Part shown: piece after piece, positions 732 to 5,698 of the stretch | How the letters are laid out: the number at the start of each line of letters is the position of its first letter | Numbering within the stretch: the first letter of the stretch is position 1 | NCBI GenBank assembly: GCA_027028665.1 | Contig: JALVIU010000404.1 | Coordinates: 1-6,728, forward strand | Reading direction: 5' to 3' | Length of the DNA: 6,728 nt | From: Candidatus Atribacteria bacterium | GTDB taxonomy: Bacteria; Atribacterota; JALVIU01 | Notes under the pieces: model-generated | The model's database searches: none | The model's input: the letters and a program-made list of their open reading frames with translations, nothing else | Told to the model about the DNA's origin: nothing | Position numbers and translations under genes: made by a program

Positions 732-759
732 TTGACAAATCTGATAAGTATGTTATAAT
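732..759 (+). promoter_or_regulatory. Sigma-70-type promoter of the transporter/kinase operon
   Basis: A perfect -35 TTGACA (732-737) and a perfect -10 TATAAT (754-759) are separated by 16 bp. A TG dinucleotide one base before the -10 (751-752) makes it an extended -10 element. Transcription should begin at about 766-767, leaving a leader of roughly 100 nt before the binding-protein gene. The bases upstream are A/T rich, which could help polymerase binding. A match this close to consensus implies high intrinsic strength, so control would have to come from a repressor or from downstream steps. Confidence 0.8.
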
Positions 760-867: not shown

Positions 868-2373
868 ATGAAAAAAATTAGTTTATTAGTTTTATTTTCC
901 TTCCTACTTGGTTTATTTCTTATCACTCCTCTTTATGCATCTACACTAAGGGTAGGAATTGAGCAAGAGGCAGTAGGGCTTGATCCAAATATTGTTACTG
1001 CATTTGCATCCTTTAGGAGGATTGAGCTACTCTACAATAGGTTGGTTACATATGATGCATCTATGAAAGTGATTCCAGATCTTGCAGAGTCCTGGGATAC
1101 TCCTAACAATACTACCTATATCTTTCACTTGAGGAAAGGGATAAAATTTCATGATGGAAAAGAGCTTACAGCTCAGGATGTAAAGTTTACATTTGACAGG
1201 ATTCTTAATCCAAAAACAGGTTCTCCTGCAAGGGCCTATCTTAAGAATGTGAAGACCATTGAAGTACTTGACCCATATACAATAAAGATTACACTTGATC
1301 AGCCTGTGGCATCCTTTTTGGTAGGACTTGCATCTGGCAATTGTTCTATTGTCCCAAAACATACTGTGGAAGAACTGGGCAACCTCCAGAGAAAGGAAAA
1401 TGGTACAGGTCCATATAAGCTTTCCAAATGGGTACCTGATAACTATATGGAGTTTACCAAAAACGAGGCATACTTTGAAAAAGGGAAACCTTATATAGAC
1501 AAGGTAGTATATAAGGTAATACCTGACCAGATGTCGATGTATACAGCACTTAAAGGAAAAAGCCTTGACCTTGCCATTATAAGAAGTGGAAGTGTATTAA
1601 AGCTTGCGGAGAAAGACAAAGATATAGTAGTGGTAAAGGTACCTGGCATAAATGTACACACATTTGGATACAACCTAAAGAGGAAACCTTTTGATAATCT
1701 TTATGTAAGACAGGCTATAGCAAGTGCAATAGATAGAGAGGAGATAGTAAAGACAGCGGCATTTGGATTTGGCAAACCTACAGGACCTATACCTATTGCT
1801 GCATCCTATTGGGCAATACCTCCTGAGGAGCTCCCATTTGGTAAACCAGATCTAAAAAAGGCAAAGGAACTGCTTAAGAAAGCAGGATATGAGAATGGCT
1901 TAAGCTTTAAGATCCTTGCTGCAAATAAATACAAACTTGCAGATATTGCACAGGTTATCCAGGCACAGCTTAAAAGAGTAGGCATTAACACCCAGATAGA
2001 GATAGTAGAATGGGGTATGTATGTAAACAGATGGAAAAAGAGAGACTATGATGCGATAGTAGAGCTAAGAGGTGGATCACCTGATCCTGATAGATTCCTA
2101 TACAGAATGGTCTATACTAATGGACCTGTAAATAACTTCTTCTTCTCTGACAAAGAGATAGACAAGCTCTTAGATGAAGGTCGTGTACTTACAGACCCAA
2201 AGGAGAGGAAAAAAATCTACGATAAAGTCCAGTATCTCCTGGCAGAGCGTGCACCTATCGTATTTTTGTATTCACCAACTGTAAGTGTTGCTCACAGAAA
2301 GGGTCTTGAAGGATTTAAACTAATACCCAATGAAAGTCTTTTATATATAAAAGATACAAAAATAGAAAAATAA
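868..2373 (+). CDS. ABC transporter periplasmic substrate-binding protein, family 5 (DppA/OppA type)
   Basis: This 501-residue protein should capture a peptide-like or glycopeptide-like solute in the periplasm and deliver it to the permeases encoded next. The N-terminus is a Sec signal peptide: Lys-Lys, a hydrophobic core to about residue 20, then a likely cleavage after LYA at residue 24. There is no lipobox cysteine, so the mature protein is soluble, which suits a diderm envelope. The family-5 signature lies at about residues 71-113, with PDLAESW, an FHLRKGIKFHDG segment and AQDVKFTFDRI. Length is typical. The ATG is supported by AAAGGGGGT at 852-860. It is the first gene after a strong promoter and is followed by a hairpin that may keep its message more abundant than that of the permeases. 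Family-5 proteins bind di- and oligopeptides, murein peptides, nickel, haem or oligosaccharides, so the ligand cannot be read from sequence; the kinase gene downstream hints at a cell-wall fragment. Confidence 0.92.
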   Translation: MKKISLLVLFSFLLGLFLITPLYASTLRVGIEQEAVGLDPNIVTAFASFRRIELLYNRLVTYDASMKVIPDLAESWDTPNNTTYIFHLRKGIKFHDGKELTAQDVKFTFDRILNPKTGSPARAYLKNVKTIEVLDPYTIKITLDQPVASFLVGLASGNCSIVPKHTVEELGNLQRKENGTGPYKLSKWVPDNYMEFTKNEAYFEKGKPYIDKVVYKVIPDQMSMYTALKGKSLDLAIIRSGSVLKLAEKDKDIVVVKVPGINVHTFGYNLKRKPFDNLYVRQAIASAIDREEIVKTAAFGFGKPTGPIPIAASYWAIPPEELPFGKPDLKKAKELLKKAGYENGLSFKILAANKYKLADIAQVIQAQLKRVGINTQIEIVEWGMYVNRWKKRDYDAIVELRGGSPDPDRFLYRMVYTNGPVNNFFFSDKEIDKLLDEGRVLTDPKERKKIYDKVQYLLAERAPIVFLYSPTVSVAHRKGLEGFKLIPNESLLYIKDTKIEK

Positions 2374-2376
2374 AGG

Positions 2377-2406
2377 AAAAAATGGGGGGAAATAATCCCC
2401 CCTTTT
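2377..2406 (+). terminator. Intercistronic G6/C6 hairpin, attenuator or mRNA-stabilising element
   Basis: Six G (2384-2389) pair with six C (2397-2402) around the 7-nt loop AAATAAT. A-rich flank before it and TTTT (2403-2406) after it can extend the pairing, with T2383 bulged. It lies between the binding-protein stop codon and the permease start, where partial terminators or 3'-end-stabilising hairpins commonly let binding protein exceed permease. The T tract is only four long, so substantial read-through into the permease genes is expected. The minus strand has a longer T run after the same stem, but no minus-strand gene nearby would use it. Confidence 0.65.
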
Positions 2407-2408
2407 GA
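2382..2408 (+). CDS. Candidate 8-codon leader ORF coupled to the permease start
   Basis: An ATG at 2382 opens the frame MGGNNPPF and ends at TGA 2406-2408, two bases before the permease ATG at 2411. AAAGGA at 2372-2377, overlapping the end of the binding-protein stop codon, can serve as its ribosome site with a rather short 4-nt spacer. The frame runs straight through the G6/C6 hairpin, so a translating ribosome would open that stem and finish beside the permease start, which has no ribosome site of its own. Translation of so short a frame cannot be shown from one sequence, and it may simply be a by-product of the hairpin. Confidence 0.3.
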   Translation: MGGNNPPF

Positions 2409-2410
2409 TT

Positions 2411-3361
2411 ATGAGCACATATATTATAAAGCGATTACTCATAATATTTCCACTTCTTTTGGGCATATCAATAGTGGTCTTTTTTGTAAGCCACCTCATA
2501 CCTGGCTCTGCTATGGAGATCTTTATGGGTACACAGGTAGAGGCAACCCCTGAACAGGTGGCAGAGCTAAAGAAGATCTTTGGAGAGGATAAACCCTTGA
2601 TAGTTAGATATTTTGAATGGGTAAAGGATTTACTAAAAGGGGATTTTGGGGTATCCCTTCGCACCTCCAGAAAGGTACTCCCAGATATAATGGCAAGACT
2701 CCCCCTTACTGTAGAACTCACTATATTATCACTTACATTGGCAGTACTTATTGGTATACCTATAGGTATATATGCGGCACTTAAACACAATCCCCTTGTC
2801 TCTCTTATCATACGAATAGGCTCACTTCTGGGTCTATCTATACCTCAGTTCTGGCTTGCCACAATGCTTATACTGTTTTTTGCAAGATATTTCCATATGT
2901 CAGACATAGGAAACTTTGTACCGTTTTTCGAAAATCCTATAGGAAATTTAAAGTTTATGTTACTTCCCTCTATCTCCATGGCCCTGGGGATGGCATCTGT
3001 CCTTGTAAGATTTACCCGTACATCCATGCTTGAGGTGTTAGGTGCAGATTACATAAGAACAGCCCGTTCTAAAGGGCTATCCGAAGGTGTTGTACTTAAA
3101 AAGCATGCCTTAAAAAATGCACTTTTACCTGTTATAACTGTTATAGGCTTTTATGCAGGGTATCTTTTGGGGGGTGCAATAGTGATCGAAGAAATCTTTG
3201 CACTACCAGGGATAGGAAGGCTCATGCTCTATGCAATAGAGAAAAGGGATTACCCTGTGATACAGGGAACGGTTATCATTGTAGCCCTTCTCTTTATATT
3301 CATAAATCTACTGGTAGATATACTTTATGGAATAATAGATCCGAGGATAAGATATGAATAG
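2411..3361 (+). CDS. ABC transporter inner-membrane permease, DppB/OppB type
   Basis: This is one of two subunits forming the membrane channel of the Opp/Dpp-type importer. From ATG 2411 the protein has 316 residues, typical for the family. The N-terminal helix (about 5-30) follows MSTYIIKRLL, the usual start of DppB proteins, and a periplasmic loop carries a DLLKGDFGVSLRTS segment (about 73-86). Further membrane spans lie near 98-123, 130-160, 185-203, 239-262 and 284-308. The cytoplasmic coupling loop that docks on the ATPase is present as DYIRTARSKG followed by LKKHALKNALLP (about 213-240), with the invariant Gly at 222. An in-frame TTG at 2405 would add two residues but is buried at the foot of the hairpin, so I prefer the ATG. 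Neither start has a normal Shine-Dalgarno site, so translation probably depends on coupling from upstream. The stop overlaps the next gene by 8 bp. Confidence 0.93.
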   Translation: MSTYIIKRLLIIFPLLLGISIVVFFVSHLIPGSAMEIFMGTQVEATPEQVAELKKIFGEDKPLIVRYFEWVKDLLKGDFGVSLRTSRKVLPDIMARLPLTVELTILSLTLAVLIGIPIGIYAALKHNPLVSLIIRIGSLLGLSIPQFWLATMLILFFARYFHMSDIGNFVPFFENPIGNLKFMLLPSISMALGMASVLVRFTRTSMLEVLGADYIRTARSKGLSEGVVLKKHALKNALLPVITVIGFYAGYLLGGAIVIEEIFALPGIGRLMLYAIEKRDYPVIQGTVIIVALLFIFINLLVDILYGIIDPRIRYE

Positions 3362-4178
3362 ATTGATAAAAAATTATGTATTCCTATTAGGTGTAATTAT
3401 AGTATTGCTCTATATATTCATTTCCCTCTTTACATCATATATAACAGGATACACCCCGGAGCAGATGAATCCAGATGATATGTTATCTGCTCCAAACAAA
3501 AAACACATTTTCGGCACAGACCAATTTGGGAGGGATATATTCACAAGGATAGTCTATGGGACAAGGGTCTCCTTTTTGGTAGCTACTTCATCTGTGGCCA
3601 TCTCTCTTATGACAGGGGTAACAGTAGGGCTTATAAGTGGATTTTTTGGTGGATGGATAGACAATCTACTTATGAGGGTAATGGATGTGATATTTACCTT
3701 TCCTGCAATGCTTCTTGCCATATTTATAATGGCAGTACTGGGAGAGACGATATTCAATATAGTATTGGCTATAGGAATTATCTACACACCTCAATTTGCA
3801 CGTGTCTCCCGTGCATCTGTTTTATCTGTTAAAAATATGGATTATATTCAGGCAGCTATAGCTCTTGGGGTCTCTCGTTTTGGGATTATAACAAGACATA
3901 TACTGAAAAATATTCTTGCATCTATCATTGTACAGGCATCACTTACATTATCACTTGCTATACTCCTGGAATCTGCCTTATCCTTTTTAGGACTTGGAGT
4001 ACAACCCCCTGCGCCTTCATGGGGAAACATGTTAAGCACATCAAGGGAGTTTATGATAATTGCCCCCTGGACCGCTATCTTCCCCGGTCTTGCCATAGTA
4101 TTACTTGTTTTGGGGTTTAACTTATTGGGTGATGGGCTCCGAGATATCCTTGATCCAAAGTTAAGGAGGATGCTATGA
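3354..4178 (+). CDS. ABC transporter inner-membrane permease, DppC/OppC type
   Basis: This is the second channel subunit, 274 residues, near the usual DppC length. After one N-terminal membrane helix (about 7-30) comes the family hallmark FGTDQFGRDIFTRI (53-66). The core spans follow, with the ATPase-docking loop DYIQAAIALG...RHILKN at about 163-186 (Gly 172). Next come ESALSFLGLGVQPPAPSWG (206-224) and the C-terminal GFNLLGDGLRDILDP (254-268). The start overlaps the last 8 bp of the first permease gene and has GAGGA at 3343-3347 six bases upstream, so the two subunits should be made together. Its stop codon shares the ATGA at 4175-4178 with the kinase start. No ATPase (DppD/DppF) gene follows, although one or two normally do. 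Confidence 0.94.
   Translation: MNRLIKNYVFLLGVIIVLLYIFISLFTSYITGYTPEQMNPDDMLSAPNKKHIFGTDQFGRDIFTRIVYGTRVSFLVATSSVAISLMTGVTVGLISGFFGGWIDNLLMRVMDVIFTFPAMLLAIFIMAVLGETIFNIVLAIGIIYTPQFARVSRASVLSVKNMDYIQAAIALGVSRFGIITRHILKNILASIIVQASLTLSLAILLESALSFLGLGVQPPAPSWGNMLSTSREFMIIAPWTAIFPGLAIVLLVLGFNLLGDGLRDILDPKLRRML
4163..4178 (+). promoter_or_regulatory. Strong ribosome site plus ATGA overlap driving the kinase
   Basis: AAGGAGGA (4163-4170) is a near-perfect Shine-Dalgarno site inside the end of the permease gene, about 5 nt before ATG 4175. The ATG shares bases with the permease TGA (ATGA). This is the best ribosome site in the operon, so the kinase can be translated well both by coupling and by fresh initiation. 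Confidence 0.8.
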
Positions 4179-5326
4179 TACCTTACAAAAATATAGAAGG
4201 GGAAAGATTGGTAGTAGGGGGTATGTCCGGTACATCATCAGATGGGGTAACCGTATCACTTGTAAGTGTAAAGGGTACATATCTTAACAAGAAAATAAAG
4301 TTTATCGATTATCTGGATAGAAAATATCCAGAATCACTCAGAGATGAGATATTTGTCCTATACCCTGGAGAGAAATTTTCCATAGAAGAGTTTGCAAAAA
4401 CAGGATATAAGGTAATGGGTTTTTATTTAAATACCATAGAAGAGCTTATAAAAAAGACGGGTATAAAAAAAGAAGATATCTCACTTATATCCTATCAAGG
4501 ACCTATACTTTACTACAAACCTCCTCTATGCATAGAACTCTCCATGCCTTCTATATTAAGCGAGGGATTTGGTATACCTGTCATATCCCACTTAAGGGCA
4601 CAGGATATCGCAGCAGGAGGAAGAGGTGCCCCCCTTTCTCCATATGTAGATTATCTATTATTTCATAGCAGGGAAAAGGGACGCATCATTCAAAATATAG
4701 GAGGTATCGCAAATCTTACAGCAATATTTAGAAATAGCAAGATAGATGATATAATTTCCTTTGATACAGGGCCTGGAAATATGATAATAGATTATCTTAC
4801 AAAGTCACTTTTTGGAAAACCCTATGATAAAGATGGATTGCTTGCCAAAAAGGGGAATATAAATGGAGATCTGCTTAGATGGCTTATGGAACACCCATAT
4901 ATTAAAAAATTCCCTCCAAAGACTACAGGGAGAGAGGTTTTTGGCAAGTCATTTGGAGATAAAATTATTCAAAAAAGTAAAGAATCTGGTATTTTGCCAG
5001 AGGATATTATAGCAACGGTTACTGCATTTACAGTAGAATCTATTGCAACAAATTATGAAAGATTTGTATTTCCATACGGAAAAGTAGATGAGGTAATATT
5101 GGGGGGTGGAGGAGTGTTTAATAAAACACTTATTGATATGTTAAAAAAACGGCTACCAGATATAGAAATAAACACACATGACACCTATGGTATACCCTCT
5201 GAGGCAAGAGAGGCACTTACATGGGCTGTGCTTGGTGATGAGACACTCTGTAACACCCCAGGAAATCTACCTCATATCACAGGTGCAAAAAAGAAAGTGA
5301 TTATGGGAACCATTACCTTCCCATGA
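4175..5326 (+). CDS. anmK: Anhydro-N-acetylmuramic acid kinase-like protein (AnmK family, divergent)
   Basis: Known AnmK enzymes use ATP to open the 1,6-anhydro ring of anhydroMurNAc, giving MurNAc-6-phosphate in cytoplasmic peptidoglycan recycling. At 383 residues this is close to family length (about 370). Visible landmarks are the phosphate-binding MSGTSSDG (17-24), DIAAGGRGAPLSP (144-156), NIGGIANLT (174-182), FDTGPGN with the likely catalytic Asp197 (196-202), TGREVFG (251-257), GGGG (309-312), GIPSEAREALTWAVLG (339-354) and PGNLPHITGA (362-371). Departures from consensus are notable. The usual DGxD has Thr26 in place of the second Asp, the usual SHGQTVxH block reads SYQGPILYY (106-114), and SDFR reads SHLR (138-141). 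An ideal AAGGAGGA (4163-4170) and the ATGA overlap support the start and couple it to the permease. Fold and anhydrosugar kinase chemistry are likely; the exact sugar is less certain, since levoglucosan kinases share this fold. Confidence 0.85.
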   Translation: MIPYKNIEGERLVVGGMSGTSSDGVTVSLVSVKGTYLNKKIKFIDYLDRKYPESLRDEIFVLYPGEKFSIEEFAKTGYKVMGFYLNTIEELIKKTGIKKEDISLISYQGPILYYKPPLCIELSMPSILSEGFGIPVISHLRAQDIAAGGRGAPLSPYVDYLLFHSREKGRIIQNIGGIANLTAIFRNSKIDDIISFDTGPGNMIIDYLTKSLFGKPYDKDGLLAKKGNINGDLLRWLMEHPYIKKFPPKTTGREVFGKSFGDKIIQKSKESGILPEDIIATVTAFTVESIATNYERFVFPYGKVDEVILGGGGVFNKTLIDMLKKRLPDIEINTHDTYGIPSEAREALTWAVLGDETLCNTPGNLPHITGAKKKVIMGTITFP

Positions 5327-5332
5327 TGGCTA

Positions 5333-5698
5333 TTATTCTTGATAAAGCATTGTTTTTATCTTTATCTCTCCCTGTGTCTCAAGGCCATCATAGCGTTTTC
5401 CTGACTTTCTGTACATAAAAAATGCACACCTATTATATGGCTCATCTTTATAAAATATGGTCAGCTTTAAAGAGATAAGCTCTCCGCTCTTTTCTATTAT
5501 CCAGAACATAGTAGTCTTTCCTGATACAGACTTAAAGGCAAATTCTTTCTGGACAACATTATAAGTTTTAAACCAATCTTCCATGGACTTTTTAAAAGAA
5601 TTTTCAATCTCTTCTCTTAATCCGCCATCTATCTCACATATTGCAGGATTTACAAGTTCCCTGGAAAAAGGGGACACCTTTTTTAAAAAATCAAGCAT
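5333..5698 (-). CDS. Conserved-looking small protein of unknown function (121 residues)
   Basis: I do not recognise this protein. It is a 121-residue soluble protein with no signal peptide or membrane segment. The first half (about 26-48) looks helical and amphipathic. The second half (about 52-99) alternates hydrophobic and polar residues as three or four beta strands, rich in aromatic residues (FAF, MFWII, LTIFY, AFFMY), so a small alpha+beta domain is likely. Two Cys (21, 91) do not form a metal motif. It is probably a real gene: AGGAGGA (5704-5710) lies 5 nt before the start, and a good promoter lies just upstream. Its stop faces the kinase stop across 6 bp, so the two genes converge. It follows the histidine kinase gene on the same strand but has its own promoter, so a shared role is not implied. 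Confidence 0.7.
   Translation of the reverse strand: MLDFLKKVSPFSRELVNPAICEIDGGLREEIENSFKKSMEDWFKTYNVVQKEFAFKSVSGKTTMFWIIEKSGELISLKLTIFYKDEPYNRCAFFMYRKSGKRYDGLETQGEIKIKTMLYQE

Follow-up and report, generated by a model that had tools for sequence, protein, structure and literature searches.

We analysed contig JALVIU010000404.1 of the Candidatus Atribacteria assembly GCA_027028665.1 (C404 in our numbering). The window, as we use the term here, is this whole contig of 6,728 nucleotides (nt), with all coordinates given on its forward strand. It carries genes for the solute-binding protein and the two permeases of a Dpp-type importer, followed by a gene for a kinase of the AnmK family. Together, these four genes may form an operon for the uptake and phosphorylation of an anhydro amino sugar derived from peptidoglycan (PG). 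The features at this locus are listed below (aa, amino acids; bp, base pairs).

732..759, + strand: sigma-70-like promoter, TTGACA-16-TATAAT, with TG before the second hexamer (12/12 match)
868..2373, + strand: family 5 solute-binding protein (SBP), 501 aa (SBP_bac_5)
2384..2402, + strand: G6-AAATAAT-C6 hairpin followed by TTTT, terminator- or attenuator-like, between the SBP gene and DppB
2411..3361, + strand: DppB-type permease, 316 aa (BPD_transp_1); alternative TTG start at 2405
3354..4178, + strand: DppC-type permease, 274 aa (BPD_transp_1); 8-bp overlap with DppB at 3354-3361
4175..5326, + strand: AnmK-family kinase, 383 aa; ATGA overlap with DppC at 4175-4178; last gene of the operon
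4493..4507, + strand: altered motif YQGPI, kinase residues 107-111, in place of (S/T/Y)HGQT
4763..4765, + strand: Asp197 within FDTGPGN of the kinase, retained

The open reading frames (ORFs) and their Pfam and NCBIfam matches agree with an initial annotation of this DNA as to the four genes, their strand, and the 8-bp and ATGA overlaps. The SBP matches SBP_bac_5 with 334 bits, and DppB and DppC match BPD_transp_1 with 141 and 115 bits, all far above the cut-offs. The kinase scores 276 bits with Pfam AnmK (PF03702; cut-off 24) and 396.7 with the NCBIfam model NF007148, "anhydro-N-acetylmuramic acid kinase" (cut-off 387). The single strong promoter named in that annotation also holds up, as the site at 732-759 is the only 12/12 sigma-70-like match in the window; weaker matches number 27, compared with 24.6 in shuffles, i.e., there is no excess. 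Transcription from this one promoter would cover all four genes.

The same annotation described the importer as translationally welded to the kinase. The overlaps fit this for DppB, DppC, and the kinase, but the description does not extend to the importer as a whole: the SBP gene and DppB do not overlap and lie 37 nt apart, with the G6/C6 hairpin between them, and the window contains no ATPase gene. The hairpin suggests that expression is probably graded, with the binding protein perhaps expressed more strongly than the permeases and kinase. The DppB start has no clear Shine-Dalgarno sequence upstream. Beyond the operon, a 121-aa ORF on the minus strand (5333-5698) is convergent with the kinase gene and has no Pfam or NCBIfam match.

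Transporter orthologs and their gene neighborhoods

To place the importer, we ran a profile of the SBP against about 390 genomes from a wide range of bacteria. Orthologs were found only in the window's genome, in two genomes of genus g100 (G127 and G269), and in G241; a search of relatives of G241 then gave 26 genomes with the SBP in five families. The g100 SBPs share 56-58% identity with that of the window, and in a quick tree, setting aside the included paralogs, the window and g100 SBPs are sister to those of the G241 group.

PG genes adjoin the transporter in 8 of 12 genera, the window's included, with the neighboring enzyme families confirmed by NCBIfam/Pfam. The gene order in G127 and G269 is GntR-AnmK-PIG-L-type deacetylase-SBP-DppB-DppC, and four species of g208 have NagZ-MurQ-GntR-SBP-DppB-DppC. 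Single genomes of other genera provide five more arrangements. AnmK lies downstream of the transporter within one cluster in L173 and convergent to it in L161, and in L179 an AnmK-serine hydrolase-GntR set is divergent to it; a divergent MurQ is found in L172 and a divergent NamZ in L158. Counting AnmK alone, four arrangements besides that of the window show the linkage, which argues that it goes beyond chance. The initial annotation had proposed, as a check, a search of relatives for a conserved binding protein-permease-anmK order, and the exact order SBP-DppB-DppC-AnmK was seen only in the window. What does recur in unrelated lineages is the association itself, as linkage of the transporter to AnmK, NagZ, MurQ, or NamZ.

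Most of the ortholog loci, like the window, have no ATPase gene directly in them. We looked for a shared operator upstream of the operons and found none. In most of the g354 loci (L157, L169-L178), a gene for a ~1490-residue protein precedes the SBP ortholog.

Co-occurrence across genomes points the same way. AnmK is found in 23 of 26 genomes with the SBP and 21 of 54 without it (Fisher p=3e-5), and MurQ in 24 of 26 and 17 of 49, respectively (p=1.5e-6); phylogeny is ignored in both comparisons, and they are supportive only. Within the g100 family, MurQ accompanies the cassette in both species that carry it and is missing from three relatives that lack AnmK. G269 also has a NamZ-like gene (by sequence reading) after MurQ.

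The window's own assembly (1.79 Mb, 413 contigs, about 90% complete, 2.84% contamination) contains the N-terminal half of MurQ, which runs off the end of contig C175 (191.6 bits; NF003915 cut-off 168). Contig C237 has a GH3/NagZ fragment at its edge. On C175, the MurQ fragment directly follows genes for a tripartite tricarboxylate-type transporter and a DapA/NanA-like aldolase (L124, 321-4711). For AmpG, whose absence the initial annotation had put forward as a check, TIGR00901 gave no match in this ~90% complete genome, and the E. coli control was positive. Seven other Dpp-type stretches were inspected in the genome, none of them beside AnmK, MurQ, NagZ, or NamZ. Further DppBC loci without ATPase genes occur at L078, L079, and L070; at L078, DppBC lies beside an amidohydrolase and a probable GH38 alpha-mannosidase, and at L079 beside M20-type and DmpA-like peptidases. 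The ATPases are likely shared among the DppBC loci of this genome.

Ligand-contact residues and the kinase clade

The SBP has a hydrophobic N-terminus that ends in LYAS and lacks a lipobox cysteine. This suggests that the SBP is probably soluble in the periplasm, in a cell with two membranes. It scores 183 with the DppA equivalog model (cut-off 1005). In E. coli DppA (precursor numbering), the dipeptide is held by R383 and D436, and a double mutant binds no dipeptides; the E41-R42 pair in the scoop loop of DppB touches both of these residues (PMC12136057). Equivalents of R383 and D436 are absent from the window SBP and from every full-length ortholog aligned, with Gly or a gap at the position of D436, and the scoop pair is T-Q in the window DppB and in all aligned orthologous DppB proteins. 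Because both DppA anchors are lost and the scoop pair is changed, a plain dipeptide is an unlikely ligand. The T-Q pair by itself is no signature, since one unrelated DppB of the window's genome (C184) also has it. AlphaFold single-sequence models of the SBP and kinase were unusable (pLDDT 36 and 34, respectively).

We examined the kinase in a set of about 70 aligned AnmK proteins drawn from many phyla. Every aligned AnmK has HGQT (rarely HGHT) except the window and g100 kinases, which read QGPI there. Other near-universal positions are altered only in these kinases (Gln to Glu at 121, Phe to Leu at 140), and Asp 26, which is 87% conserved, is replaced in the window kinase group by Thr/Ser. 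The window and g100 kinases form one clade (100/99 support) that adjoins the canonical HGQT enzymes. HGQT, which the window kinase does not have, is conserved in the AnmK family but does not formally define membership. The kinase does keep Asp197 in FDTGPGN; in AnmK and levoglucosan kinase, we take the catalytic Asp to occupy this place in the (F/Y)DTGPGN motif. Its closest solved structure is levoglucosan kinase (5e-56, compared with 1e-47 for AnmK 3cqy). We considered levoglucosan kinase as the main identity and set it aside, as that enzyme retains HGQT and the genomic context is muramic.

Given the loss of HGQT and the separate QGPI clade, the exact substrate of the window kinase is not to be assumed. 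In G127 and G269, the kinase gene overlaps the PIG-L-type deacetylase gene; for this reason, a modified muramic compound deserves serious consideration. The other genomes that link the transporter with AnmK have a canonical HGQT kinase, so the transporter is not bound to the QGPI clade alone. We tentatively suggest that the QGPI clade might act on a muramic or other anhydro sugar unlike 1,6-anhydro-N-acetylmuramic acid (anhMurNAc), e.g., a de-N-acetylated one, and travel with its own refitted Dpp-type importer. If this is true, "refitted" would mean that the SBP binding site and the scoop loop are adapted to the ligand of the clade.

Proposed function and alternative explanations

Altogether, these observations suggest, with a probability that we put at about 0.6, that the operon serves the uptake and phosphorylation of a PG-derived anhydro amino sugar by an AmpG-independent route. 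The periplasmic SBP would capture a PG-derived amino-sugar fragment, and DppB-DppC would carry it inward, driven by ATPase subunits encoded elsewhere. Cytoplasmic NagZ would remove N-acetylglucosamine (GlcNAc) where present, the AnmK-like kinase would use ATP to open the anhydro bond and give the 6-phosphate, and MurQ would take off lactate, so that GlcNAc-6-phosphate enters metabolism. The ligand is most likely a 1,6-anhydro-muramic acid compound, either anhMurNAc itself or GlcNAc-anhMurNAc, whether or not the latter bears a peptide stub. What is bound, that it is imported, how the kinase acts on it, and where the ATPase comes from are all predictions from genes and motifs. AmpG-independent salvage had been suggested in the initial annotation, and it gains from the linkage to PG genes, the MurQ and NagZ fragments in the genome, the lack of an AmpG match, and the missing DppA anchors; the part that fares less well is the kinase, which has lost HGQT.

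Several observations weigh against this proposal. The same loss of HGQT speaks against anhMurNAc as the substrate of the window kinase, a role that it may still have. Some unrelated family 5 SBPs likewise lack the DppA anchors, so this loss names no ligand. No AnmK, MurQ, NagZ, or NamZ gene lies beside the transporter in g354 (ten genomes), g326 (five), g338 (two), or G450 (g349), and G450 has the SBP but neither AnmK nor MurQ. For G241 and G462, the identity of the muropeptide importer is ambiguous, since AnmK in these two genomes is linked to a separate five-gene Opp system as well. In the window's genome, MurQ and NagZ are present as contig-end fragments only, and the N-terminus of the NagZ fragment is hydrophobic, so NagZ may be exported rather than cytoplasmic.

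The altered kinase lends itself to a different explanation, in which the importer takes another 1,6-anhydro sugar or a muramic compound that has been modified (e.g., de-N-acetylated), with a kinase related to AnmK but changed in specificity. This would account for the well-supported QGPI clade, its private changes at 121 and 140 and the replaced Asp 26, the closer match to levoglucosan kinase than to 3cqy, and the overlap with the deacetylase gene in G127 and G269. However, levoglucosan kinase itself keeps HGQT, the transporter orthologs adjoin MurQ and NagZ, which are enzymes of muramic compounds, and MurQ is present in the window's genome as well as in G127 and G269. We regard a changed specificity of this kind as doubtful, although it deserves more weight than the two explanations that follow.

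If AnmK were a mere neighbor, the operon could encode an ordinary peptide importer. The protein families fit, as this is a family 5 SBP with DppBC permeases and many family 5 systems transport peptides, and at least six other Dpp-type loci of the window's genome have no adjoining AnmK. Such a reading leaves aside the linkage to AnmK in five arrangements and to MurQ, NagZ, or NamZ in others, and it must also accommodate the absence of both DppA anchors, the double mutant of which binds no dipeptides (PMC12136057), together with the parallel change of the scoop pair; we consider it improbable. The remaining alternative accepts the operon as real and takes the contig as a contaminant, so that its link to the genome's MurQ, NagZ, and missing AmpG would be spurious. 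The number of contigs and the 2.84% contamination leave room for this, and AnmK was found in 0 of 49 genomes of the same phylum, the closest relatives in the collection, which share the phylum only. Against this, the window contig has a mean tetranucleotide similarity of 0.56 with contigs of its own genome and 0.32 with others, the MurQ and NagZ contigs also fit the genome (0.46 and 0.53, compared with 0.32-0.33 for other genomes), and the G+C content of all three contigs suits their own genome better than others. Contamination is a very unlikely explanation.

Comparison with known systems

PG recycling by way of an ABC importer is already known from Agrobacterium tumefaciens, in which YejBEF-YepA is an ABC-type PG-recycling importer (PMC9790009). 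It resembles the AmpG-independent uptake that we propose for the window in being a peptide-type ABC importer with a dedicated SBP, which stands in for AmpG and supplies NagZ, AnmK, and other enzymes of recycling. However, the window importer is another permease type, in other phyla: DppB scores 157 with the YejB model (cut-off 445) and DppC 119 with the YejE model (cut-off 439), the operon has no ATPase gene corresponding to YejF, and YepA has been reported in Alphaproteobacteria only. The MurNAc route ends in MurU there and would end in MurQ here, and the kinase gene lies inside the importer operon here.

Two E. coli importers are also related. DppABCDF has an SBP and both permeases of the same families (PMC12136057), whereas the window operon lacks DppD and DppF, R383 and D436 are absent, and E41-R42 is replaced by T-Q. 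MppA-OppBCDF is an Opp/Dpp-type importer that acts in murein recycling, but MppA keeps an Asp at the DppA D436 position, which the window SBP does not, and it scores below DppA and others on the window SBP profile. The ligand of MppA is the free murein tripeptide and not a sugar fragment. As for the kinase, it shares its family and the FDTGPGN Asp with AnmK of E. coli and Pseudomonas and with levoglucosan kinase of Lipomyces, and it differs from all of these in QGPI for HGQT, Glu at 121, Leu at 140, and Thr/Ser at 26.

A search of the literature available to us found no report of this importer type adjoining anmK or murQ. Uptake of wall fragments in bacteria without AmpG or a phosphotransferase system is known for few lineages. 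If the proposed function is correct, many annotated "dipeptide" importers of deep-branching or thermophilic bacteria would be wall-sugar importers, identifiable by the missing Arg/Asp pair together with a GTQ scoop loop, and the kinase clade with the unusual motif would offer a direct test of what determines AnmK specificity.

Other loci place importer genes near PG salvage genes as well. In G241 (L128, 7866-15797), genes for a PF00144 serine hydrolase and AnmK come after the five-gene Opp system, a second importer linked to PG salvage, and G462 has a similar set (L173). In G180, of a different lineage, genes for a NagZ-like protein, DppC, and DppB are divergent from those for an M20 peptidase and AnmK (L055, 4909-10126). 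In other phyla (L058, L060, L064, L067), AnmK adjoins NagZ, NamZ-like, or MurQ/MurR-like genes, in some cases with genes for a sugar-type ABC importer; judging from these gene readings, wall sugars may commonly enter through ABC importers.

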